From: a virus
IMG/VR virus record: IMGVR_UViG_3300043410_000336
Span: 1 to 43,312 of that record
DNA length: 43,312 nt
Reading direction: 5' to 3' (one strand)
The number at the start of each line of letters is the position of its first letter. Positions within the stretch are counted from its first letter, which is position 1. Shown in pieces: positions 7,006 to 30,829 of the stretch. The position numbers were made by a program, and so were the translations under genes. The notes below the pieces were generated by a model. It saw only the letters and a list, made by a program, of their open reading frames with translations, was not told the origin of the DNA and did not search any database.

Positions 7006-9465
7006 TCAGGAAAAAAAGAACTCTGAATCCTGAACCCCCTCCAACGCCAATGTTCCACGGGTAGGCAGCGGTTCAAGTTCCAACTCATTCGGCAGTTTAT
7101 CAGCGAACTGTTGCAACACATCCTGCTGGTACATATCGATGAAGGCTGGCTTCACGCAGTCTCGCAGGAACATCGACATCTTTGCGGCGTGAACGCCGAA
7201 ACTATCGTGAACCATCCCGTAATGATGAATGCCAGCTTTAAGACCACGCATGATGGACATGCGGAGCAAAGCTGCGTCCATTGAATGGACGAAGTTAGGA
7301 GCGACTGCCAAAGCCATATCTTTAGAGGAGAGGCGCTGCGTGTCGTGTTTCAATTGAAGACGCACACGGACATTGCCATCAAGATATGTCTCGACCCGAT
7401 TTTTCTTGGCATCACTACGGTAGTGAACAACCTCGAAACCGTCAGGCGTAACCCACGACATGCGCTTGTCATACGCATTGCCCATGAGGTTGTCATTTGC
7501 CCACTTCGTGTATTCACGCGCTGCTGTGCTGATCCAGCGCATTGCTTCTTTTCCTTTGACCACTACCTCATCGATGGCTTCCCAGATCAGCTTGGAAAGC
7601 AGCACCATGTGCTTCGTGTGTTCCTCCGTATTGTCGGCATTCCACGCACAAGGATGACCGTCCTTTATTTTTTCCAGCACAGCCTCGCGTGTGTACTCCA
7701 TGCACGAGGCGAACGTGCCAGCGTAAGGAACGACCATGACCTGACGCTTGGTGATCTTTCGATCAATTCCAAACTTGATCAGGTTTGCACACTCGACGGG
7801 AAACTGGTTGCTCTCGCGCATCAGCTTCTCGACGGTCTTGTCAGCTACATCTTGGTAGATGTCCTGACGCGACATGTTAGGGACGAGGTTCACGCTCTTG
7901 CCACCAACCTCGTCGCGCAGCATGGCGCTGTAATGTTGGAGGCCGCTGCATGTTGCGTCCACGGGCGTGACCATGTGCGACATGAAACCGTAACCTTGTC
8001 GCCAGAAGGCAGACCACTCGAAACAAAAGCGAAGGAACTGGAAAGGCTCGCTAGCCGTAGTCCAACGCAGATCGTGCTTGGGGTCTTTTGCAACGGAGAA
8101 AATCAATTCCTCGTTATCTTGTACCCAGTTCACACGTTCTTGAAGCGAAACCTTATCGTTGCCGTAAGCATTGGCTCCTGCAATTGCCAGCCAGCATGCC
8201 TGTTCCTCGTTCTCAATCGGCTCGCCATGTGCGAACTCAAGCAGCGCCTTCGTGCTGTCTGGTCCTTGAGGGTTCAAGAAGACAGGCAGCGGGTAGGCAC
8301 GGCCTCGACTGTCGAGATTGTGCGGGAAGTACACTTCCTTTTCTGTGCGGTAGGCACGAGCGATGGCGATGGTTGAGAGGACCAGCAGACGCTTGCTCTT
8401 GACCTCACGGTTCTCGCTATGGATCAGGAAGCAGAGCTTGTCGTGCGCCTTGGTGATCTCTTCGTCCACGCGATAGCCTTCAGGCTTCTTCGGCAAGTCT
8501 TTGTCGTTTGCCAGAGGAAGGCCAGCAATGCCTCCGCCACGCTGGTACATGGCCCACTCCAGAACGTCGAGGACGTTACGGTTGATGCGCCACGGCGTTT
8601 CCTGCAAGGCGTTGATCGCAGGGATGACCTGAGACCAATCCTTCGCCATCAGGCGGTCTTTGTCCTTTGCGTTGGTTCCTTTGACCAGCGGGTAAGGCTT
8701 GGTCTTCACCGTGTCGAGATAGCCACCACGGAAGAGGTTGCTAGCGGACCACGGTATAGGAGGGCAGAGCATAGGCTTGTAGAGCATGAACTCCAGCACG
8801 CGAGACGCGAGGGTCTCTTCAATGTGCTGCGTCAACTCCTGAGCAGGATCGACAAACGTCGAGCCACGAGGACAGACGACGAGGCCCGTGCTGTCACGGA
8901 ACCACACGAGGAGGGCATGGCCGATAACCAGCTTCTCGTTCTGTGACCATTGGTTCCACGAAAGCTGTTCGGCATGGAAGTAGTTGAGGATCGTCCGCTT
9001 GCGCCAGTCACGAGGGTAGGTCCGCTTGTCGAAGGTCTTGAACAGCTTCTTGAGCAGAGCCTTGCGGTTCTCGTTTTGGGCAAAGAACCGTATGCGAAGC
9101 TCGTCGTGGACCACCTCGCCAACCTTCATGCAAAGGGTGACGGTCTTCAAGCGACGACGATGAGTGAGCGGCATCAGGTTGTAGAGGGTCTTGCTGAACA
9201 GGTAGGCCAGCACTTCCGGCTCCAGACCGGATTCGACCATGAGACGGATCGCTCTCAGGTTCGATCCTGAGCGATTGGGATCGTAGTTTGCCAGCATCTG
9301 TTCGACGGTGTGAACGAACTTGGACGTAGCTTGAGTGGTGTATGTCCTGCCAATTTTGGACTCAGACCACGCCTGTCTCTTGTTGTGCTTTTGGTTGTCA
9401 CGGTCGCGACGAATGTACGCATCACGATACATGCGATCTTCGACCTGTAGCTGTTGGTCGTGCAT
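7006..9465 (-). CDS. Single-subunit DNA-directed RNA polymerase (T7 gp1-like)
   Basis: 819 aa from the ATG at 9465 (GAGGTG six to seven bases upstream); a GTG at 9495 would add ten residues but lacks such a site. T7 RNAP has 883 aa. Catalytic residues are in place: Asp503 in PVDATCSGLQHYSAMLRDEVGG, Arg569/Lys573/Tyr581 in DRKITKRQVMVVPY, and the second metal Asp in VHDSFGV near the C-terminus. It transcribes middle and late phage genes from the CACTATA promoters and defines the T7-like group. A phage promoter upstream suggests it boosts its own synthesis, and an operator-like repeat pair in the leader could repress it during lysogeny. Confidence 0.98.
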   Translation of the reverse strand: MHDQQLQVEDRMYRDAYIRRDRDNQKHNKRQAWSESKIGRTYTTQATSKFVHTVEQMLANYDPNRSGSNLRAIRLMVESGLEPEVLAYLFSKTLYNLMPLTHRRRLKTVTLCMKVGEVVHDELRIRFFAQNENRKALLKKLFKTFDKRTYPRDWRKRTILNYFHAEQLSWNQWSQNEKLVIGHALLVWFRDSTGLVVCPRGSTFVDPAQELTQHIEETLASRVLEFMLYKPMLCPPIPWSASNLFRGGYLDTVKTKPYPLVKGTNAKDKDRLMAKDWSQVIPAINALQETPWRINRNVLDVLEWAMYQRGGGIAGLPLANDKDLPKKPEGYRVDEEITKAHDKLCFLIHSENREVKSKRLLVLSTIAIARAYRTEKEVYFPHNLDSRGRAYPLPVFLNPQGPDSTKALLEFAHGEPIENEEQACWLAIAGANAYGNDKVSLQERVNWVQDNEELIFSVAKDPKHDLRWTTASEPFQFLRFCFEWSAFWRQGYGFMSHMVTPVDATCSGLQHYSAMLRDEVGGKSVNLVPNMSRQDIYQDVADKTVEKLMRESNQFPVECANLIKFGIDRKITKRQVMVVPYAGTFASCMEYTREAVLEKIKDGHPCAWNADNTEEHTKHMVLLSKLIWEAIDEVVVKGKEAMRWISTAAREYTKWANDNLMGNAYDKRMSWVTPDGFEVVHYRSDAKKNRVETYLDGNVRVRLQLKHDTQRLSSKDMALAVAPNFVHSMDAALLRMSIMRGLKAGIHHYGMVHDSFGVHAAKMSMFLRDCVKPAFIDMYQQDVLQQFADKLPNELELEPLPTRGTLALEGVQDSEFFFS

Positions 9466-9487
9466 AGATGACACCTCTGCTGTAGCT

Positions 9488-9566
9488 GTAAGCACGGTGT
9501 GAACACAGAGTTTTGTATCTTTAATTGTTACTGTAATTCACACAGGAGTATGCACGGTGCATACAC
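9488..9566. promoter_or_regulatory. Operator-like repeat pair in the RNAP leader
   Basis: gtaagcacggtgtgaacac (9488-9506) and gtatgcacggtgcatacac (9548-9566) agree at 15 of 19 bases and lie exactly 60 bases apart, about six helical turns. The second contains a perfect 8-bp palindrome around one base. Between them is AT-rich sequence (around 9507-9540) that could hold a host promoter for RNAP. This looks like a dimeric repressor site pair; the binding protein is unknown. Confidence 0.5.
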
Positions 9567-9919: not shown

Positions 9920-10948
9920 TCACCTCACGGCCTCCCGTGATTTGGTCCTCCCTTCCAGAATCAGCACGCCTTCTTCAAGGTCGTCGGTGTTAAAGTGAAT
10001 GTAACGTCTGGTGGTCATCAGGCTTCGGTGTCCCATCCACTTCATCAGGCGAAGCTCAGACATGCCGCCTTGTGCGAGACGGGTGGCGCATGTGTGACGC
10101 AGGGTGTACGGGACCAGCGTGTCGTCCGTGATGCCAGCCGTGGTTCTGGCTCTGCACCATTCGTTATAGAAGGTGTCGTAGCAGATCATGGACCAGACCA
10201 GAGGCGAGGCTTGCGGGAGCCGTCTGTGTGGGTCACGGGCGTTCGGTACAGGAAGACCTTTGAGCGCCCAATCCAGCGCCGCCTTCGCCTTGCCTGTCAG
10301 CGGCAGGGTTCGGGGCTTGGCTGTCTTGGTGTCCCAGAAGGTGACGGTCGTCTTGTCCACAGATCGGGCGACATCTGTGCGGACCAACTTCAATGCCTCG
10401 CTTGGACGACAGCCTGTGCCTAGCAGGAAGTCAGCGAAGTAGCGGTAGGGTTCGGACAGGCCACCAAGCATGGCTCCCTCCTCGTTGCCCGTCAGGACAC
10501 GGATGCGATCATTGTCGGACGGGAAGAAGGGGATGACAGGGACGGTCGAGATTACTTCCTCATCCACCCCGTAATGGAGCAGACGCGAGAGCTTCGCCAT
10601 TTTGGTGTTGAGGGTGCTTTCAGCGTTGCCTTTGGCCTCAAGCGTTTTGAGTACATCCTTGACCACCTTGCGGTCGATCTTGGACACAGGCAGATCAGCG
10701 CCGATAAGCTCGACCAGTTCGTCGCAGATGCGGAACGCATTGCGCTCGTCCTTCGTGCCGCCGTAGCACTCACGCTTCCAACGAGGGAAGAGTGCGCCAA
10801 CGGTAGCAGAAACCTTCTCGACCTTTTCAGCAGCGTAAGGATTGGCCTCGAAAGCTTCGGCAGCTTCCAGCGTAGTGAACACGCGACGAATGCGCCGCCC
10901 GTTCACATCTGCGCTGCCCATGTACTTGTCTTTATGTTGCCACGCCAT
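9920..10948 (-). CDS. int: Tyrosine recombinase (phage integrase)
   Basis: 342 aa. The N-terminal third has an arm-binding/SAM-like part, then the catalytic domain: Arg181 in GTGCRPSEALKL, Lys208, Arg284 in YTLRHTCATRLA (the usual first His of this box is Tyr281, a common variant), His307 in WMGHRSLMTTRRY and the nucleophile Tyr316. It integrates and excises the phage genome at attP. The attP-like tRNA fragment lies directly downstream, and the gene is coupled to an upstream winged-helix gene (TGATG overlap). An integrase in a T7-like phage marks a temperate relative of an otherwise lytic group. Confidence 0.96.
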   Translation of the reverse strand: MAWQHKDKYMGSADVNGRRIRRVFTTLEAAEAFEANPYAAEKVEKVSATVGALFPRWKRECYGGTKDERNAFRICDELVELIGADLPVSKIDRKVVKDVLKTLEAKGNAESTLNTKMAKLSRLLHYGVDEEVISTVPVIPFFPSDNDRIRVLTGNEEGAMLGGLSEPYRYFADFLLGTGCRPSEALKLVRTDVARSVDKTTVTFWDTKTAKPRTLPLTGKAKAALDWALKGLPVPNARDPHRRLPQASPLVWSMICYDTFYNEWCRARTTAGITDDTLVPYTLRHTCATRLAQGGMSELRLMKWMGHRSLMTTRRYIHFNTDDLEEGVLILEGRTKSREAVR

Positions 10949-17303: not shown

Positions 17304-17680
17304 TATGGATAATCTTTCCAAGGCAGTTGGTAGTGCGGACCATCCTTGAACGAAGTCCAATCTCCACCCCACTCAATCGGAACGCCAACGTCCTGACTTG
17401 CCTGTTTCACAATGTGAGCAAGGTTGTCATACAGCGGCCAATCCCAACGAACTTTGCCATTGACCGTGCAAGCAAGGTCCACAGCGTGTCCGTCGAGATG
17501 TCGAGATTTCATGGTTTTGGAAGCACCAGCGGCAACTAGCTGCTGCTGACGCTGCACAGAACGGAGACCCTCCGTCACCACAAAGGGTACGGTGGTAATC
17601 TCCGCTGCGCGATTGATGACTTTGATCAGATCAGGGTGAACACCAGCCAACCGCTTCAATGAGCGGTCGTCTAAAGTCAT
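17303..17680 (-). CDS. Endolysin, M15 family peptidase
   Basis: 125 aa. The zinc and catalytic motifs of VanY/M15-type L,D-endopeptidases are intact: SRHLDGHAVDL (His-x6-Asp, residues about 59-69) and WGGDWTSFKDGPHYQL (Asp and the last zinc His). T7-like phages of alphaproteobacteria often use this endolysin instead of a glycosidase. It cleaves the peptide bridge of peptidoglycan for lysis. No signal peptide, so release depends on the holin next to it. Overlapping start and stop codons couple it to both neighbours. Confidence 0.92.
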   Translation of the reverse strand: MTLDDRSLKRLAGVHPDLIKVINRAAEITTVPFVVTEGLRSVQRQQQLVAAGASKTMKSRHLDGHAVDLACTVNGKVRWDWPLYDNLAHIVKQASQDVGVPIEWGGDWTSFKDGPHYQLPWKDYP

Positions 17681-18042
17681 TACTGAAGTCGTTTCAACTT
17701 GTAGAGCGTGTGGAGGTAGAGGCCAGCAAGATCGTCCAGCATGTTTTCAATGGCAGGAACGCTCTTGGCGATGGCAGAGCGGTTTTTCGTGATCCATGCT
17801 GCATCAACGGTGATCAGCGGGATCAGGTCAGCAACTTTAGGGGTTGCGCTCTTTGGTTCACCAATGTCGCCAAAGTAGGCGATGTAGGCTTCAACGATAC
17901 CATCAAGCTTGTCGATGATGCCGTCATAGAAGTCACCCAAGGCCGAATGGCGAGCAAAGGAGCCGACACCAGTCGTCTTCCAATGCTCTAGGTGTGCAAG
18001 GTTGCGAGCCGCAAAAACACGGCCAATGAGTTCTTCAATCAA
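17680..18042 (-). CDS. DUF5856-like, ferritin/Dps-like helical protein
   Basis: 120 aa, predicted all-helical. Residues about 10-60 (ARNLAHLEHWKTTGVGSFARHSALGDFY...IIDKLDGIVEAYIAYFGD) show the His-Trp, His, Asp and Glu pattern of Dps/ferritin-type four-helix bundles and resemble DUF5856 phage proteins. I infer the fold, not iron storage. It sits between the second radical SAM gene and the endolysin, coupled to the latter, eleven bases after the radical SAM stop's upstream side. Whether it serves the radical SAM enzymes (for instance iron supply) or the lysis cassette is unknown. Confidence 0.65.
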   Translation of the reverse strand: MIEELIGRVFAARNLAHLEHWKTTGVGSFARHSALGDFYDGIIDKLDGIVEAYIAYFGDIGEPKSATPKVADLIPLITVDAAWITKNRSAIAKSVPAIENMLDDLAGLYLHTLYKLKRLQ

Positions 18043-18053
18043 TTTAAGTATCC

Positions 18054-19442
18054 TTAGAACTTCAGTTCCACATTGCCATCAAAGAACCATTGAGGAAGGG
18101 GACCGAAGAGAAACTCTTTGTCGATAACCGGAACGCTGGTCACGCCATCCCTGCGAATTGCGTCACCACGGATTTCAATGAGAACCATGTGTGTCGCGTG
18201 GAACAGGGCAGCAGCCAGAGCGCCAACATTGTAGGCAAACGAGTTGTCACATGCCTTGGACCACATTTCGTTCTCAAGAAACAGACATGCGCCTCTGCAC
18301 ATTTGCAGAACCGGACATTTAACGCACTCTTCGCGTGTAGACCAATGGTAAGCTTTCTTCAAACGGATGTGATCGAAAGCATTCAGATGGCCCATGTTGT
18401 GGTCGGTGAGTGCCGACATGTTCTGGCAAGTCATCACGTTGCCGTTCATATCGACGGCAATGTTGTCCTCGCGATCCATGCCGCATTTCTGGCCCAGCGC
18501 ATCGGCTGGACGCTTCATGGCAATCGACTGCAAAAAGGTCTTAAGCTTGGTTTCGACGGAATTGATGTTCATAGTGAAGCCACGGATAGCTTCGTAGAAC
18601 ACCGTGTGCGTCAGACGTTTTGATGTATGATCGTCCAGAACCGACAACGACATGCCGCCTTCGTCGTAGGGCAGCAGGATTTCTTCGGTTGTCATCGGAA
18701 CGTAGCGTGGATCGATGCCAAGATAGTGACCAATGTACTCACGGGCGATGTGCAGCGAGACGTTCTTGTTAGAAAGCACGCAGTTGAAGCCTATGTTTCC
18801 TTTTGGTGACAGTTGCTCGTAAGCGTATTTGATCCATTTAAGCTGTTCCGGGTTCTTCAGCGGGTCTTCGCCACGCTGAACCTCGTATGCGGGACCGTCA
18901 TGGGAGATACCAAGACCGAAACCAAGCTCAACAAGCCAGTCCACTTTCTCCTGATCAAGCAAAGAGCCGTTAGAAATGATGTTGAAGTCGGCTTTGGGGT
19001 AAAGTTTGCGGACGCCTTCAGCCAGAGGTTTGAGCGTCTTCCAGTAAACGAACGGTTCGCCACCCCAGAACTCGATGGTCGTGTGCGAGCCATCGCCAAT
19101 ATCGAACCATTCCGGCATCTTCGACAAAAACCAGTCAACCTTTTTCGGGTTGCCGTCAAAATCGTGCGGCTGCGCCGCCTGATTGCAGTAGGAACAGGCG
19201 TAATTGCACTTCAGGCCCATCTGAATCTTGATGTTCTTTGCCTTGCGGTGCTTTTTGCCGTGCTGTGAAGGCGAGACGACAATGGCTTTGCGCCAGTTAG
19301 GCGGTACAGCCGGAGGTTTCATTCCGACAGTTTCTAGGTTGAGCGGTTCGCCCGTGTCCTGCCAATGGCATTCAGAGGTAAGCGGATCATATACAAGCGT
19401 CCTGACGTTTCGTTGGTCGTCTTGCAGCAGAAGTTCAAACAC
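18054..19442 (-). CDS. Radical SAM/SPASM enzyme 2
   Basis: 462 aa from a GTG start with AAGGA six bases upstream. A 70-residue N-terminal extension (possible peptide-recognition part) precedes the radical SAM motif Cys79-x3-Cys83-x2-Cys86 and the SAM-binding GGEP at 127-130. The C-terminal SPASM domain is complete: Cys320-x13-Gly-x4-Cys339, then Cys373-x2-Cys376-x5-Cys382-x3-Cys386-x11-Cys398, ligands for two auxiliary 4Fe-4S clusters. Such enzymes are known from peptide and protein maturation (sactipeptides, ranthipeptides, sulfatase maturases). It lies 13 bases behind radical SAM enzyme 1 in the late operon, so it is made with the virion proteins. Substrate not shown; the Cys-rich fibre tip is the prime candidate. 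Confidence 0.93.
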   Translation of the reverse strand: MFELLLQDDQRNVRTLVYDPLTSECHWQDTGEPLNLETVGMKPPAVPPNWRKAIVVSPSQHGKKHRKAKNIKIQMGLKCNYACSYCNQAAQPHDFDGNPKKVDWFLSKMPEWFDIGDGSHTTIEFWGGEPFVYWKTLKPLAEGVRKLYPKADFNIISNGSLLDQEKVDWLVELGFGLGISHDGPAYEVQRGEDPLKNPEQLKWIKYAYEQLSPKGNIGFNCVLSNKNVSLHIAREYIGHYLGIDPRYVPMTTEEILLPYDEGGMSLSVLDDHTSKRLTHTVFYEAIRGFTMNINSVETKLKTFLQSIAMKRPADALGQKCGMDREDNIAVDMNGNVMTCQNMSALTDHNMGHLNAFDHIRLKKAYHWSTREECVKCPVLQMCRGACLFLENEMWSKACDNSFAYNVGALAAALFHATHMVLIEIRGDAIRRDGVTSVPVIDKEFLFGPLPQWFFDGNVELKF

Positions 19443-19455
19443 GAATTGTCCTTAA

Positions 19456-20463
19456 TCAGACGAACGAGTACGAAGTGTCCCATTGATCCTGCGTTTTCCA
19501 GTTCTCTTCGAGGAACGTGAATATCTCGTGCTTGCGCTTGGAGAGGTAGCAGTCAACTTCATGCGTCTGGCTCATGTGGCAATTGCCACGACACCAAAAG
19601 CGAATTGGACAGGTCTTACATTCGTCCGTGTTTACGAAGCGGTGAATGTGATCCAAAGCTGGAGAGGCATCTAATTCAGCGCCATACGTTCCTACTTTGG
19701 TGTGTTTGTTGACATTGTGATGACATCCGTAGCGGTTGCCGTGGAGATCGATGTCTATTTGATGGTTGCCGAAGCACATGGGCAGATAGAGTTTTCGCTC
19801 CATGTTGGCTCGCCATTTTTTCATATGTCCGACAAACAAGCTTCCAATATGTTTATCGTTTGTGTCCACGAGGCGTTTGGCAAGCTCCATCAAATGGTCG
19901 CTATGCTCTTTCGCCATGTCAAATGTCAGGTATTCGGAGGTTGGACAGCCTTTGGTTGCGTGAACCCAGTTGATCCACGGAAACACCCGGCGACCGTAAC
20001 GCTGTTCTAAGTCAGCTACATCCTTGAGGAAGTCCCAAAGGATGTATTCACGAGCGGTGACAACGTGCGAGTACGATTGGTTTTTAATATCTCGCGTAAC
20101 GTCCCACTTTGGAGTTCCGAAAGCCTTGTGGCGGGAGATGTTGACAAATGCGTCCCAACGGTTCGCGTCTTCAACATGCTCTTTTTCCCAAAGCGTGCCG
20201 TTCGTCGTAATCTTGACGAACTCAAACTCTAGGCCAGCATCAAGGAGAGCTTCGTGAGCTTCCTTGATATGCCGCCAGTACAGAATAGGCTCGCCACCCC
20301 AATAGGCGATGCGCTTTATGTTGTGCGCTTTCGCTATTGGGATGACGTTGTTCTTGAAAACTTCAAGATTAAGCTTCGGCGATCCGGTGCGCTCGTCTTC
20401 CCCAGCTTGTAGGCAGTAACTGCAATTCAGATTACAGGCAAAACCAAGAAAGACGTTAAGCAT
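19456..20463 (-). CDS. Radical SAM/SPASM enzyme 1
   Basis: 335 aa. The radical SAM motif is right at the N-terminus: Cys10-x3-Cys14-x2-Cys17 (FACNLNCSYC), with GGEP at 56-59. The SPASM domain is complete: Cys230-x11-Gly-x4-Cys247, then Cys282-x2-Cys285-x5-Cys291-x3-Cys295-x9-Cys305. No N-terminal leader-binding extension is seen, unlike its neighbour, so the two could act as a pair on one target. It is distinct from QueE-type phage radical SAM enzymes, which lack SPASM. The ATG shares a base with the upstream stop (TAATG), coupling it to the 311-aa protein behind the tail fibre. Confidence 0.93.
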   Translation of the reverse strand: MLNVFLGFACNLNCSYCLQAGEDERTGSPKLNLEVFKNNVIPIAKAHNIKRIAYWGGEPILYWRHIKEAHEALLDAGLEFEFVKITTNGTLWEKEHVEDANRWDAFVNISRHKAFGTPKWDVTRDIKNQSYSHVVTAREYILWDFLKDVADLEQRYGRRVFPWINWVHATKGCPTSEYLTFDMAKEHSDHLMELAKRLVDTNDKHIGSLFVGHMKKWRANMERKLYLPMCFGNHQIDIDLHGNRYGCHHNVNKHTKVGTYGAELDASPALDHIHRFVNTDECKTCPIRFWCRGNCHMSQTHEVDCYLSKRKHEIFTFLEENWKTQDQWDTSYSFV

Positions 20464-21398
20464 TATTCCACCTTAATTTCCGTCGAGCCGACTTTCGTGT
20501 GAAAGCCAGCTTGCGCTTTGATCTTGATACGATCACCAGCGGTCAGATCGAAGGCGCGAACCTTCACGATAGCCTGACCGTTGATATCTGTTTTGATTTT
20601 TGTCTTTGGCAAATAGCCAGCATTGGACGACAGGGTGAGTTCGACCGACTTGGCGCAAGGCGTGTTACCTTCCCAAGCGTAGTCCTCATTGGCGTTCCAC
20701 AGAAGCTGGAGAGAAACCTCTGCCAGCCCGTCAGGAGCCACCGTCACATTAGGATCGAACTCGACACGCCACAGGCCGTCCACGAGACGCGACCCTGCGT
20801 TGATGGCAGGACGTTCCTCGTCCCACTCACCGTCCAGCAGGATCGGCTTGTAGGCTCCATATGGCACTTCAATCAGCGCAGCATCTGCCGACGATGACGG
20901 TGCAAACGGAAAGACAACACTCATGCCTTTCGCGTAGTCTGGTCCAATGATGAACCGGGTACGCACAGGGTTGATCGCCTTAGCATCTTTGGATTGATGT
21001 AGACGATTGTAGATGCCTTTCGGACGAGAGGCGCTGTCCACATAGAACTCCATGATCGCAAGATCGCCCAATTCGTCGTAGCCATATGCGCCGTCAAGCG
21101 AGAGCGTCTGCTTCCCGTGCAGGAAGAAACGTCCTTCTTGGTTTGGCACATTGAGAACCTCGACAGGGTTTGTCGGCAGAATCGGTTTGCCGCTTGCTTC
21201 TGCATAATCGGCAGGGGCCTTCACCCATTCGACAAACTCGTCCCAAGTCATGTCAGTTTTGCCAGCCCAATGTTCCTCGTTTTCATTACCTTTGACAGCA
21301 AACGCAGGATAAAGGACGGCAAGCGTGATCTTGCTGTCTTCAATGCTGACGACCGGGAGACGGTTGATTGATCCATGCGGACCACAAATTACTTTCAT
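20463..21398 (-). CDS. Unknown protein between tail fibre and radical SAM genes
   Basis: 311 aa from MKVICGPHGSINRLP at 21398, with AGGAG seven bases upstream; a TTG at 21422 is not supported. Mostly beta-type sequence. The last 80 residues (VELTLSSNAGYLPKTKIKTD, AIVKVRAFDLTAGDRIKIKA) look like an Ig-like/bacterial-adhesion fold, and the middle has aromatic, carbohydrate-binding-like surface patterns (WDEERPAINAGSRLVDGLWRV). It starts 12 bases after the fibre stop and is coupled to radical SAM enzyme 1. It could be a second receptor-binding or fibre-tip protein, or a chaperone/scaffold of the fibre modification. I recognise no family. Confidence 0.8.
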   Translation of the reverse strand: MKVICGPHGSINRLPVVSIEDSKITLAVLYPAFAVKGNENEEHWAGKTDMTWDEFVEWVKAPADYAEASGKPILPTNPVEVLNVPNQEGRFFLHGKQTLSLDGAYGYDELGDLAIMEFYVDSASRPKGIYNRLHQSKDAKAINPVRTRFIIGPDYAKGMSVVFPFAPSSSADAALIEVPYGAYKPILLDGEWDEERPAINAGSRLVDGLWRVEFDPNVTVAPDGLAEVSLQLLWNANEDYAWEGNTPCAKSVELTLSSNAGYLPKTKIKTDINGQAIVKVRAFDLTAGDRIKIKAQAGFHTKVGSTEIKVE

Positions 21399-21409
21399 CC
21401 TTATCTCCT

Positions 21410-23590
21410 TTAGTCGTTGCAATTACAGTCGCAGTTGCACGCACAGGCGCAAGCGCAGTCGCAGTTACAGTTAGAGAAGCAGTTGAACGTGCCGCAATTG
21501 CAGTTGTTGTAATTGCGATGGTATTCAGCGCCACCGATCTCGTCCGCATAGACGTAATAAGCGTCATAAACGTAGGATGAGGTAAACGGCTGATTGGTCG
21601 TTTGCGTGCCGCCAGCAAAATCATAACCAGACGGATTGCCACGGGTGATGCCCGTCACGCCCGTCCAAGTCCACCACGAGGTGTTTGGCGGGTTCCATTG
21701 TGCGGAACCGTTGCAGTTACCGTTGGCAATAGAACCACGACAATTGTTGATACGGTCGTCGTAATACTGGTTGGAGCGATTAAGCTCGCCAATGTCCGTG
21801 CCGTCAGCAATCTTGTAGCCAGTCGAACGCGCATTATCGCCCGTACCGTTGGAGCGGATGTCAGCGGTGTGGTAAACCACGCCCGTGAACGTGCCGCCCG
21901 TGGCAGGAACGCCAGCAGAACTGGCCTTGCTGTCAACATACTGTTTGGTAGCAGCCTGAAGCGCAGAGGTCGGGTCAGACGGAAGCACAAGAGCGCCCGT
22001 CATGGTGTCACCCGCCTTGTTGACAGGTGTGTAACCGATAGTCGCCTGTTTCGTCGCGAGGCCCGTGTCCACATACTGTTTCGTTGCAGCGCCAAGCGCA
22101 GCAGACGGATCAGCATTGAGGACGAGCGCACCTGTCATGGTATCGCCAGCCTTGTTGACAGGCGTGTAGGCAAACGAAGTTCCGTCCGTCCCCTTGATCG
22201 CAAGGAGATTCCAGTAGGTGTTTGACGTACCGGAAGACGGAGGCGCATTGCCTGTAGAATTAGCTACGCAAATCCACGCAGAGCCGTTGTACTGAACGAT
22301 GTCATCAACAACGTAAGTCGTGCCGGACGAGTAAGTGCCTCTCCAGTTCGCGCCCTTTGCACCGTTCGCACCAGCAGGGCCTTGAATACCCTGCGGACCT
22401 TGAGCGCCTTGCGGACCCTGCGCGCCTGTCAGGCCAGTCGGACCTTGTGGACCCGTTGCGCCTGTAGCGCCCGTGGCTCCGGTGTCGCCCTTTGGTCCCT
22501 GCGGACCAGTCGCACCAGTATCGCCCTTCGGTCCCTGAATACCTTGCGGACCTTGGATGCCTTGCTCGCCCTGCGGACCCATCGGGCCTTGCGAACCCTG
22601 CGGACCTTGTGGACCGACACCAAACGTGATGCCGTTCGACCAGTCACCAGAGGTGGACGAGTTCTTGAAATAGAGCAGACCCTGATCGGTCGCGAGATAA
22701 GAGAACTTCGCAGCGGATGCGTTGTACGTCGAGCGGCCCGACAGAAGACCAACAGCGTCAGGCTTGAAGTCAGCGCCAGCATCGCCCTTCGGACCCTGCA
22801 CGCCCTGTGCGCCCATCGGGCCAGCAGGGCCTTGGACACCAGCAGGGCCTTGTGCGCCAGCCGTGCCAGCAGGGCCAGCAGGGCCAAGCGGTCCAGCGGG
22901 GCCTGTGGGGCCAGCAGGGCCTGTGTCGCCCTTAGCGCCTGTTGCGCCTGTTGCTCCGGTGGCTCCTTGCGGTCCAGCAGGGCCTGTGGGGCCTTGCGGA
23001 CCCTGTGGGCCGATTTGTCCGGTCGCGCCTTGCGGACCCTGAGCGCCTGTCGAGCCAGTATCGCCCTTCGGTCCAGCAGGGCCAGCGGGTCCGGTTGCAC
23101 CAGCGGGGCCTACGGGTCCGGTCGGACCAGCGGGGCCAGCGACTTTCGACACGGTGTCCACATACGCTTTGGTAGCGGCATCGCTGTCGAGATAAGGCGC
23201 AGCAACATTCTTGATGCGCTTAGACTTACCATCCCAAACGCCAGAAGCGTCAGGCAGCATGGCGCGACCAGCAACGTCATTGGCTTCCTGCATGCCGTAG
23301 AGAAGCTGATTGACGGTCGCATTAAGCTGACCGCCCGTCACCGGAGCGCCGTTTGAATAAACCACCTTCGGCGTGGTCAGCGAGGTCTGTCGCTCAACAC
23401 GCATCGAAGCCCCCACCGCCAGAGCAGGAGTAACTCTGATGACGTTGGGGGACACGAAACTGTAGGTGTATGAACCAGAGCCAGAGAACGTAACAATGAC
23501 CTCTGCTTGGTCCAAGTAGCTAAACGGAACGGAATAATCGGTAGTCGTCCCGTTACCGTTATAAATTACATAGGTGTTATAAAAGGCCAT
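21410..23590 (-). CDS. Tail fibre with collagen-like repeats and Cys-alternating tip
   Basis: 726 aa, AGGA eight bases before the ATG. Residues 1-150 form a T7 gp17-type tail-binding domain ([21 protein letters not shown]). Gly-x-y collagen-like runs at about 151-273 and 326-414 flank a 50-residue insert. A carbohydrate-binding-like module follows (about 414-466, [21 protein letters not shown]), then two phage fibre repeats ([16 protein letters not shown]..., 476-510 and 521-553) and a 140-residue head. The end is exceptional: [19 protein letters not shown] closes the protein, with Cys at 697, 699, 704 and every second residue from 708 to 724. It binds the host receptor. Two radical SAM/SPASM genes downstream may modify the tip. 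Confidence 0.95.
21930..22180 (-). repeat. Tandem fibre repeat (two copies)
   Basis: Two copies of a unit encoding [16 protein letters not shown]-x2-DP-x3[11 protein letters not shown], the short repeat seen in many phage tail fibres, with about 75% similar DNA. Likely forms stacked trimeric beta elements before the tip. Confidence 0.8.
22345..23140 (-). repeat. Collagen-like coding repeats
   Basis: Two low-complexity blocks (about 22345-22615 and 22770-23140) made of 9-bp units of the ggaccctgc/gccagcagg type, encoding Gly-Pro-Ala/Gln/Thr triplets. Such arrays change length by slippage and recombination, so fibre length may vary between strains. Confidence 0.85.
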
Positions 23591-27955: not shown

Positions 27956-30829
27956 TTATCGGGCGTTTGCGGGACGCGCTGGGTTGCGAAACGGAGTAGT
28001 TCCGTTGCCGTCAGACGTTCCACCAGATGTTCCACCAGAGTTTCCGCTTGAGCGGTTAGTCACTTCCGGTCCAATCGAGGTCATCACGCCGTTCATTTCC
28101 TTACGGACTTCCTCACGCGCTGCGTCCAAGATTTTACGAAGGTCTGTGCCAATAGGATAAACGCCTGTCGATGTGATCGAATCCTTGACTGAATCGCGAA
28201 CGTGTCGTTCAAAAATGTCCTGCATCTCATTTTCAAGATCAGGACGCTTCATCAACACAATCGGACCAAGGATTTCATTACCAACGGTGTTAGTCACCAT
28301 ACTAGCAACACGCTTGGTGTAGTACTCCTGCACATCCTTCTGCTGAAGGACAGCCGAGCCGCTCATATGCGCTTCAAGCTTGTCGAGGATGGCCTTTCGA
28401 TCTGTTGGCGAAATGTCATCACGGTTCAAAATGTAGTCACGCATCATTGCGACAGTAGGCTGCTTGCCTGAGTTAACGGCTTCCGCAATCTTGTTGTCGT
28501 CAGCGAAATCCTTGTAATTCCCAATCGTCCCGGCGTTGTATATTTTGTCGAGCAGATTGTCGCGATTGCGAGCAGAAGTGGTTTCTGGGATTTCAGAGGA
28601 TTTCTGAAGGGCAATAGCCCAATCACGTTTTTCGTGATCAGGCAGTCCGTTGGCATCTTTGATCGAATCAAAATCGATTTCGCCTGTTTTACGGAACGTG
28701 TCGAGAATGCCGTTTTTCCAAGTGATTAGGTCTTCAGCTTTTTTACGCTCTTCTGCAACACGCTTACGCTCTGCCATCTTGAACTGACGGTCGATGATCT
28801 GTTCCTGCGATTTACGCAACAGGTCTCGCTCGTCCTTAGAGAGAGCATCCCAGTTGATCGCACCCTGCCTTTCATCAAGCAACGAGGGGTCGCCATACTT
28901 TTCGGCGGCGTTAACCAGAGTCGAAATCTGACGAGCCTTAGAGATTTTGCGTTTCTCAGGATCGTCCTGACCGACAAGGAAGCGAGCGTCCTCTTGATCC
29001 AAGATTTGACGGATCGCAACAGCGCGAGGCGAACGGTTGAAGCCGACAGCTTCGTCTGCCCTGATGACAGCAGAAGTAGGATCAGTCTCAACAGTCGTGC
29101 CTGTAGATGTGGCCGTAGTGCTGCCCGTTGTTGCGCGTCCGGTAGACGTAGCATCAGTTGCGGTTGTCGTGTTGCTCGCCACCACCACGTTGGGTTGGTC
29201 GAGTGATGCACGCGCACCAAGACGGCCCTTGAGCGCCTTGGCATACTCATCTTTTGGCGTTGTCGCATAGTTGCGACCGGGGCCGGGGAAGAGACCGTTG
29301 ATTGCGTCATCTAAAGTAGATGCGCTGGCAGCAGCCGGATAGTTCTTCTGAAGTTTGGCCCACCAGTCTTTCAGGCTTTCATTGGGGTCAGCATACTTAC
29401 GGAAGTCTGCATCGACCTCAATGACGCTGCCATCAGTAGCGCGTTCCTTCGTTCTGTGGGTGACACGATCACCTGTCCAATCAGCACCTGCTTTTACGCC
29501 GAAGATGTTGTTTGATTTGGATGCCAGTTCTGAGCGGCCTTCTGCCGACTCGACGGATGCTTGAGCAGCAGCAAGTTTTGCTTGCGGCTCAGGAATGCCC
29601 ATATCTCTGGCACGCTTGTAGATGTCAGTCTGAAAGCTCGTGCGGAAGTTTGAGATGTCAGCGGTGTCGAGACCTTTGGTCCTGATCAAGCTAACTGTAC
29701 TCATGCCTTCGTCGGGTTGCTTATGGCCGGGATTTACTTCGCCGTGACCATATACGGCGTTGGCAGAAAATCCGTGTTTTGCGGCCATAGTAGAAACGAG
29801 CTTGCGAGCAGCATCGACCTGAACAGGGAGGACATCCTTGTCGTCATTTGCGATAATCTCCACACCAAGCGAGTTACGGTTCGACAGCGTAGGGGCTTTG
29901 CCTCCCTTTGCTGCGTACTTTTCTCCCGGCTCAATATGCTGACCTCGCATGTTGTCAGGCAGGACTTGGTAGACCTTGCCTTCACGGTCGATCACAAAGT
30001 GAGCGGGGAAGTTTCTCTGTTTGAAAGTCTGAACAACGCCTTCAACGCTGCCACGGCCTCCGGTGTGATGGATGACGAACCCTTCCACCTTGTCCATCGG
30101 ACCAAACTGCGCCCAACGCTGTGCGGTAGCGGTGTCAACCTTGCCGGAAACATCTTCGATTTCGCCACTTGCCTCGACGCGCTGTCGGCCTGACAGCACA
30201 TCGTCAACACGGGTGTCGAGACGAATGCCCAAACCATCTTCAGCCGCTTTCTCAAGGTTCTTCACACGCTCCGCAGCGATAGTCTGCGAACGCTGGAGGA
30301 ACAGTTTGTTCATCGTGTCGAGATAGCTAGGACCGTAGAAGTGTTCCTTGCCGACACGTTCAGCTTCTGCGGCAAGACGCTTGTTCAGCGCCGCTGAGAC
30401 TTCTTCAGGAGTACGCAGATTAGGGTCTGTTGTAACTTCCTGAATGATCTTGTTGGCCTGTGTCGTGCCGTGCATGATACCGATAGTTTCGGCGGCACGG
30501 GCTTGCTGAAGAGGCGTAGCTTGCGGAAGGAGGGCTGTAACCTGATCTTTGATCGGGCTGTTGCCGTTAATCTCGTTGACAATTGACGCAGCAAGAGCTG
30601 GAACTTCCTTAAGGTCGTTCTCGTCCTGCTTTTTCTGATATTCGCCTACAGCCCCCTGAAACCTCGCGAGCGAGTCGGTAAGCTGATTAACGCTTTTCAT
30701 CCGGTCTGCGTATTCTTCACGCAAACCACGAGCGTCAACGCCATAGCTTTCACGGGGCGTAATGCGCGACTGACCAAGACCAATCGCGTCCTGACCGCCG
30801 CCATACGGATCGTTAATCTGTAGTGCCAT
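27956..30829 (-). CDS. Internal virion protein C with amidase and glucosaminidase domains
   Basis: 957 aa at the T7 gp15 position. After a helical N-terminal part comes an N-acetylmuramoyl-L-alanine amidase (Amidase_2) at about 247-385: FVIHHTGGRG (His254), then GVEIIAND and YGHGEVNPGHK (His362, His369). Next is a glucosaminidase/FlgJ-type domain at about 393-540, with Glu427 as probable catalytic acid in AAAQASVESAEGRSELASKSNNIFGVK. A Ser/Thr-rich linker (VVASNTTTATDATSTG) leads to a helical C-terminus. Both domains act on peptidoglycan, so the protein should open the wall during DNA entry. Two different wall hydrolases in one ejection protein is unusual. Confidence 0.9.
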   Translation of the reverse strand: MALQINDPYGGGQDAIGLGQSRITPRESYGVDARGLREEYADRMKSVNQLTDSLARFQGAVGEYQKKQDENDLKEVPALAASIVNEINGNSPIKDQVTALLPQATPLQQARAAETIGIMHGTTQANKIIQEVTTDPNLRTPEEVSAALNKRLAAEAERVGKEHFYGPSYLDTMNKLFLQRSQTIAAERVKNLEKAAEDGLGIRLDTRVDDVLSGRQRVEASGEIEDVSGKVDTATAQRWAQFGPMDKVEGFVIHHTGGRGSVEGVVQTFKQRNFPAHFVIDREGKVYQVLPDNMRGQHIEPGEKYAAKGGKAPTLSNRNSLGVEIIANDDKDVLPVQVDAARKLVSTMAAKHGFSANAVYGHGEVNPGHKQPDEGMSTVSLIRTKGLDTADISNFRTSFQTDIYKRARDMGIPEPQAKLAAAQASVESAEGRSELASKSNNIFGVKAGADWTGDRVTHRTKERATDGSVIEVDADFRKYADPNESLKDWWAKLQKNYPAAASASTLDDAINGLFPGPGRNYATTPKDEYAKALKGRLGARASLDQPNVVVASNTTTATDATSTGRATTGSTTATSTGTTVETDPTSAVIRADEAVGFNRSPRAVAIRQILDQEDARFLVGQDDPEKRKISKARQISTLVNAAEKYGDPSLLDERQGAINWDALSKDERDLLRKSQEQIIDRQFKMAERKRVAEERKKAEDLITWKNGILDTFRKTGEIDFDSIKDANGLPDHEKRDWAIALQKSSEIPETTSARNRDNLLDKIYNAGTIGNYKDFADDNKIAEAVNSGKQPTVAMMRDYILNRDDISPTDRKAILDKLEAHMSGSAVLQQKDVQEYYTKRVASMVTNTVGNEILGPIVLMKRPDLENEMQDIFERHVRDSVKDSITSTGVYPIGTDLRKILDAAREEVRKEMNGVMTSIGPEVTNRSSGNSGGTSGGTSDGNGTTPFRNPARPANAR

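Follow-up and report, generated by a model that had tools for sequence, protein, structure and literature searches.

What do two different radical SAM/SPASM enzymes do in the tail fiber operon of a virus with T7-type genes? Maturases of this kind are familiar from peptide natural products and from a few enzymes, and the window (the whole stretch of viral DNA analyzed, 43,312 nucleotides of a 43.3-kb source record) encodes two radical SAM/SPASM enzymes in a tightly spaced minus-strand block, in the order fiber, accessory protein, short enzyme, long enzyme and DUF5856 protein:

21410..23590, minus strand: tail fiber, 726 aa (Pfam PF03906, PF01391), the proposed substrate, with a T7 tail-fiber N-terminal domain, collagen-like repeats, a tip domain and a Cys-repeat C-terminus
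21413..21505, minus strand: Cys-repeat tail of the fiber, 31 residues with 12 Cys, read from sequence
20463..21398, minus strand: accessory protein, 311 aa, ATG start with AAGGAG upstream, C-terminal Ig/Big-1-like domain
19456..20463, minus strand: short radical SAM/SPASM enzyme (rSAM2), 335 aa, ATG start; enzyme 1 of the original prediction
18054..19442, minus strand: long radical SAM/SPASM enzyme (rSAM1), 462 aa, GTG start, phrog_1802; enzyme 2 of the original prediction
17680..18042, minus strand: DUF5856/phrog_858 protein (family matches), directly 3′ of rSAM1

The gene block and its two enzymes

We named the long enzyme rSAM1 and the short one rSAM2, because the long enzyme proves to be the core of the cassette. 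The ATG of rSAM2 overlaps the stop codon of the accessory gene as TAATG. The virus had been called a podovirus from its sequence, and the gene content is compatible with that label: T7-type RNA polymerase, head-tail adaptor, capsid, internal virion proteins, large terminase and the T7 tail-fiber N-terminus are all encoded in the window, as is an integrase. The integrase (phrog_1; 9920-10948, minus strand) and the T7-type RNA polymerase (7006-9495, minus strand) possibly mark a temperate T7-like phage. Also in the virion gene block (27956-30829, minus strand) is a 957-aa protein with endolysin/amidase-like domains, a possible virion-associated lysin or ejection protein. The starvation-inducible regulator-like DUF5856/phrog_858 protein directly follows rSAM1 both in the window and in its closest relative (locus L068), and probably stands outside the mechanism discussed below.

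Both enzymes are complete, as the original prediction had held. Each passes the Pfam gathering score of PF04055 (29.5 bits; short enzyme 39.1, long enzyme 34.1 bits) and the cut-off that NCBIfam sets for TIGR04085, the SPASM domain (27 bits; 34.0 and 38.1 bits, respectively), and each has 3+7 cluster cysteines. Those of rSAM1 are the CX3CX2C cysteines C79/C83/C86 and, in the SPASM domain, C320-X13-G-X4-C339, C373-X2-C376-X5-C382-X3-C386 and C398, and all 10 are invariant in 51 diverse relatives. In rSAM2, a CX3CX2C at residues 10-17 is followed by CX11GX4C and CX2CX5CX3C-gap-C. The protein begins with MLNVFLGFAC, almost at its cluster motif as had been noted from the sequence, and this near-immediate start is kept in relatives. 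In rSAM1, by comparison, 78 residues precede the first cluster Cys and about 69 precede the barrel. Are these genes decaying cargo? The relative L068 carries both enzymes, with amino acid identities of 79% (long) and 84% (short) and dN/dS values of 0.055 and 0.042, respectively, ratios that are rough as synonymous sites are near saturation. Such low values indicate that neither gene is decaying, which upholds the earlier view. By the same rough measure, the fiber tip (0.137) and the accessory protein (0.135) lie above the enzymes.

The phrog_1802 profile covers residues 46-406 of the long enzyme (E 1.6e-60) and residues 4-110 of the short one (E 1e-21), and rSAM2 forms a separate monophyletic subfamily on one side of a tree branch (SH-aLRT 99). 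No named radical SAM maturase equivalog among PapB, geopeptide, nif11, SCIFF, HxsB and HxsC reaches its cut-off; the best scores are those of the geopeptide model (69.5 vs. a cut-off of 400) and PapB (60.4 and 61.2 vs. 340), and the rest are lower. Judged by sequence, then, neither enzyme is unusual for the radical SAM/SPASM kind, yet neither belongs to a named maturase family.

Linkage of rSAM1 to a cysteine tail on the fiber

A connection of the enzymes with the fiber C-terminus had been suggested for this DNA, and three independent scans revealed it to be very strong. In the tails Cys alternates strictly with a residue that is N, D or A; the window tail has Asp after its last Cys and ends directly at the stop codon, and the fibers beside rSAM1 relatives in IMG/VR end RACNCNCNCGSYSNCNCGSTAFNCRTNCNCNCNCNCSTDC. 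In scan (a), which started from the tail, IMG/VR was searched solely with a DNA pattern encoding C[ND]C[ND]C[ND]C[ND]C, giving 120 stretches. The C-terminal class included tails with an S74 chaperone after them, and out-of-frame or internal matches, including DCDCDC low-complexity patterns inside reading frames, served as controls. An rSAM1 homolog was present at 71 of 89 C-terminal tails vs. 1 of 31 controls (non-redundant, 38/49 vs. 1/29; Fisher P=6e-11), and the single enzyme-positive control (L030) is in fact a true tail, truncated where its contig stops. The recovered fibers fall into several kinds, and upstream of the tail they share no evident similarity. In scan (b), which started from the enzyme, rSAM1 was sought in bacterial genomes and found at 79 loci, most of them from Alpha- and Betaproteobacteria, and the strict CxCxCxC motif was found on the enzyme strand in 44 of them, vs. 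two motif matches on the opposite strand of all loci together. A further 18 loci, judged by eye, have a shorter NCNCNC-type terminus (e.g., NCNCNCRC), bringing the tail to 62/79 bacterial loci with those 18 included. Scan (c) started from the fiber-tip domain minus its tail and gave 63 loci in IMG/VR; the tail was found in 62, the remaining one being cut by a contig end, and rSAM1 in 50/50 loci with at least 4 kb of downstream sequence.

All told, considerably more than a hundred further loci in phages and prophages have this pairing of fiber tail and enzyme. Because it recurs so widely, we conclude that phages very probably remodel the host-contacting fiber tip chemically. That the tail is the substrate of rSAM1 is strongly supported by this linkage, which by itself is not proof, and in our judgment the operon is highly likely to be a fiber-tip maturation cassette in which rSAM1 modifies the Cys-repeat tail at the mature fiber C-terminus, most likely via thioethers. 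Could the enzymes instead act elsewhere, on a host peptide, nucleotide or cofactor, and merely hitchhike as cargo of the fiber operon? Their low-level viperin-like and MoaA-like similarity would fit such a role, and it is linkage on which the assignment of the substrate rests. However, the linkage holds across fibers whose upstream sequences are unrelated, and rSAM2 is associated with a particular tail ending (see below), making the cargo explanation very improbable.

How does the tail come to lie at the end of the mature fiber? In 133 of 141 tail loci the tail runs to the stop codon, the last residue being Cys in 89 of these 133. In 8/141 tail loci a Hint domain follows, as in Achromobacter phage JWF, whose fiber gp028 has a Cys-repeat end with the Hint domain immediately after it, and in four loci a Peptidase_S74 chaperone follows, as shown by Pfam for one and by the same sequence pattern for the rest (loci with FWSDD..LK after the tail, initially counted as internal, were classed as Peptidase_S74 tails). 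Hint and S74 domains cleave themselves off, and therefore all three routes, stop codon, Hint and S74, give the same exposed tail, which is the mature C-terminus in each case. This constant position at the mature end would also suit a tip in which the alternating cysteines run along the fiber trimer's threefold axis and bind a metal or Fe-S cluster, with the enzymes modifying other residues or loading the site. HxH motifs bind iron in T4 gp37, and strict alternation of Cys with N/D/A would place all the cysteines on one face of a strand. Such a site, however, needs no two ten-Cys radical SAM enzymes, yet an enzyme is present in every one of the 50 tip loci with enough sequence, and we regard metal binding as quite improbable.

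Relatives of rSAM1 are scarce among isolated phages. In 50,697 phage records, those with at least 78% coverage (37-38% identity) came only from Achromobacter phages JWF and 2-1 (three records), isolates that both carry the pair of fiber tail and enzyme, and one unannotated phage record matches rSAM1 over 70% at 24.5% identity. Radical SAM genes of Campylobacter phages were considered as members and rejected, as they match just the core (24% of the query) and lie beside no annotated fiber. By profile rSAM1 is a member of phrog_1802, "radical SAM domain-containing protein", which includes JWF gp030, a gene that lies two genes after the Cys-tailed fiber with the Hint domain; a second radical SAM enzyme was not found in JWF at the sensitivity used, and in the records and literature examined we found no link of phrog_1802 to fiber tails. 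Searches of isolated phages returned no match to the fiber-tip domain or to the accessory protein. The rarity of rSAM1 among isolates may explain why the system went unnoticed.

One clade of rSAM1 relatives, from Variovorax, Ramlibacter and related genomes (L199, L201, L204, L205 and L208), had no detected Cys tail. An ORF of about 770 aa precedes the enzyme in these loci, together, in some of them, with a short ORF, a potential peptide precursor; the clade is possibly a chromosomal, non-phage offshoot.

Fold, relatives and likely chemistry of rSAM1

The AlphaFold model of rSAM1 (pLDDT 93.6) was compared with known structures by Foldseek. The matches were CteB, a thioether former, anSMEcpe, ChlB, TigE, SkfB and SuiB, followed by viperins. 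Because the best 19 structural matches are all peptide or protein maturases, ahead of viperin, the original prediction of a peptide substrate rather than a nucleotide or cofactor is supported, and the assignment of both enzymes to a nucleotide- or cofactor-modifying subfamily, named beforehand as the outcome that would overturn it, was not observed in profile and fold comparisons. Viperin, MoaA and QueE, considered as nucleotide-modifying identities, were rejected, being outranked in fold and profile searches. The prediction had also credited the long enzyme with an N-terminal extension that could recognize a peptide. The extension exists, with about 69 residues before the barrel, and is conserved in single-enzyme loci too, but the model shows residues 1-69 as three strands and an extended linker, with no three-helix bundle. 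As this model has no winged-helix helices, the extension was rejected as a RiPP recognition element; no winged-helix element, fused or separate, was found in the rSAM1 model or in the accessory protein.

Which reaction might rSAM1 catalyze? Thioethers are the usual products of known SPASM maturases that act on Cys-rich substrates, and on this ground we chose thioether formation, a choice by analogy to which we give about an even chance. The PapB ranthipeptide-maturase model matches 51/51 rSAM1 relatives, albeit below its cut-off, and is also the best model for rSAM2. The sacti- and ranthipeptide SPASM maturases (CteB, PapB, geopeptide and nif11-type) have in common with our enzymes the fold, CX3CX2C, a seven-Cys SPASM domain and an adjacent Cys-rich substrate gene, and in RiPP fashion the candidate substrate was encoded near the enzyme in all three independent scans. 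They differ in that our candidate substrate, rather than being a short, cleaved, leader-bearing precursor, is the tail at the C-terminus of a large, trimeric fiber of the virion (726 aa), with no leader peptide seen, and in that our enzymes have no recognition-element helices and score below all equivalog cut-offs. Where a Hint or S74 domain follows the tail, as in some relatives, that domain stands in place of a leader. Since the residue between cysteines can be N, D or A, no single acceptor residue is obvious.

Two other chemistries have to be weighed against thioethers. One is oxidation of the formylglycine type, by which tail cysteines would become aldehydes and the reactive tip could couple to amines on the host surface. 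The anaerobic sulfatase-maturating enzyme (anSME), which shares the overall SPASM fold and makes formylglycine from a Cys of its protein substrate, resembles rSAM1 in fold as closely as CteB does; anSMEcpe occupies Foldseek ranks 3-7 and is the best full-length PDB match by sequence profile, relatives are annotated as sulfatase-maturating enzymes, and Cys targets would fit. Yet TIGR03942 scores only 44.5 and 40 bits on the two enzymes, below its cut-off of 349.45, and is outscored by the PapB, geopeptide and nif11-type models; furthermore, there is no sulfatase here, and the sulfatase motif C-X-A/P-X-R is absent from the tail. Formylglycine is thus an improbable product. The other alternative, unlikely though deserving of some weight, comprises epimerization that gives D residues in alternation, C-C bonds of the cyclophane kind, or modification of Asn/Asp at C-alpha or C-beta. 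A D/L pattern would fit an alternating repeat, the fold of the epimerase EpeE/YydG matches more weakly, and cyclophane-forming maturase models match below cut-off, whereas thioether formers are the nearest models and folds that have Cys-rich substrates.

In the His-Xaa-Ser system, two different SPASM-type enzymes (HxsB and HxsC) likewise go with one alternating-residue repeat. Here, however, the profile matches are weak (42 and 34 bits vs. cut-offs of 370 and 268), the repeat is Cys-(Asn/Asp/Ala) and the context is a phage fiber. In pelagimyophages, radical SAM genes lie near tail-fiber genes as part of a variable cassette in the host-recognition cluster (PMC7029224); the passages retrieved from that paper name no Cys tail, substrate or mechanism. 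The open-licence full-text literature gave no description of fiber-tail maturation by radical SAM enzymes, an absence that is not proof.

Partner genes and a probable second tailoring step

Of the 141 tails, 130 have a radical SAM enzyme nearby, 90 have the accessory protein and 80 have proteins resembling 2OG-Fe(II) oxygenases. Homologs of the accessory protein, in 90/141 tail loci, begin at a median offset of 12 bases after the tail gene. The AlphaFold model of the window's accessory protein (pLDDT 89) has a weak C-terminal match to intimin; no full-length match was found in the PDB, the full-length matches being uncharacterized viral proteins only, and a search of the protein for an RRE-like match gave none. 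It may be a chaperone, scaffold or co-structural protein. The oxygenase-like proteins form three clusters (74, 14 and 14), two of which are confirmed by Pfam (PF13759 and PF13640), and none of the tail-locus type is encoded in the window. The usual gene orders are tail-accessory-oxygenase-rSAM1, tail-oxygenase-rSAM1, tail-accessory-rSAM1 and tail-rSAM1.

Where does rSAM2 belong in this scheme? A single-sequence search of viral contigs yielded no relatives of rSAM2; the scans by tail, by enzyme and by tip did recover them, and in each case the gene sits between those of the accessory protein and rSAM1, which is the oxygenase slot. No locus has both rSAM2 and an oxygenase: in the non-redundant set an oxygenase is present in 0/8 loci with rSAM2 vs. 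47/72 without it (P=5e-4), and in the tip set in 0/10 vs. 35/41 (P=6e-7). The tails differ as well, in that Asp follows the last Cys in 8/8 non-redundant tails with rSAM2 vs. 4/72 without (P=2e-8), with endings after the last Cys of ND, GDG, GDA, ADR and RD. The truncated tail of L030 likewise ends GDA. The rSAM2 loci share ancestry, so these tests overstate independence and the P values are optimistic. One of them (L045) has a different kind of fiber, however, and therefore the association does not reflect shared descent of a single tip only. We conclude that rSAM2 is an optional partner that replaces the 2OG-Fe(II) oxygenase.

For the two enzymes, the original prediction had offered a choice between two successive reactions and a division of labor in which one recognizes and the other catalyzes. 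The position of rSAM2 in the oxygenase slot and the Asp-capped tails lend support to successive reactions as an interpretation. Although the genes are adjacent and the short enzyme is without an N-terminal domain, as might be expected if one enzyme were a recognition subunit, rSAM1 occurs without rSAM2 in most loci and both enzymes keep all catalytic and auxiliary cluster ligands, ten cysteines each, and have low dN/dS values; moreover, what rSAM2 replaces is itself a catalyst. For these reasons a split between recognition and catalysis is unsupported and, in our view, most unlikely.

We propose that the fiber would be translated first and its tip probably held or presented by the accessory protein. 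Post-translationally, before or during assembly, rSAM1 would modify the Cys repeat, most likely by making sacti-/ranthipeptide-type thioether cross-links from Cys sulfur to carbon. On that tail rSAM2 would carry out a second and alternative tailoring reaction, its target probably including the Asp-capped end after the last Cys, and in relatives this role would fall to the oxygenase. Hint or S74 domains, where present, would then leave, and the product would be a rigid, chemically modified knob at what is presumably the host-facing end of the fiber. Here we infer the order of the reactions, the role of the accessory protein and any effect on adsorption or ejection.

How general might such a process be? 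We lean toward the view that it is a widespread and overlooked form of virion maturation, in which a ribosomally made Cys-repeat "warhead" or knot on host-facing fiber tips is modified by radical enzymes, with interchangeable tailoring enzymes matched to tail-terminal residues, and is exposed by a stop codon, Hint or S74. If true, this would be a new use of radical SAM/SPASM chemistry, on a host-facing part of the virion, and a new step in the biology of tail fibers. It would also give a function to many phage genes labeled only as "radical SAM" or "2OG-Fe(II) oxygenase" auxiliary metabolic genes, and it makes a general question testable: do phages diversify their receptor-binding tips post-translationally?

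Genes of the phrog_81 type in phages are as a rule listed among the auxiliary metabolic genes. The three clusters of 2OG-Fe(II) oxygenase-like proteins, which we observed inside the fiber cassettes of L028, L111, L143 and other tail loci, look like fiber-tip tailoring enzymes. Lastly, six loci (L023, L024, L059, L066, L101 and L132) have two to four divergent radical SAM genes beside a short protein or fiber with a CNCNC tail, e.g., HTHVFYDDYTTACDCNCDCNCTRGIL, and are a more elaborate version of the cassette.
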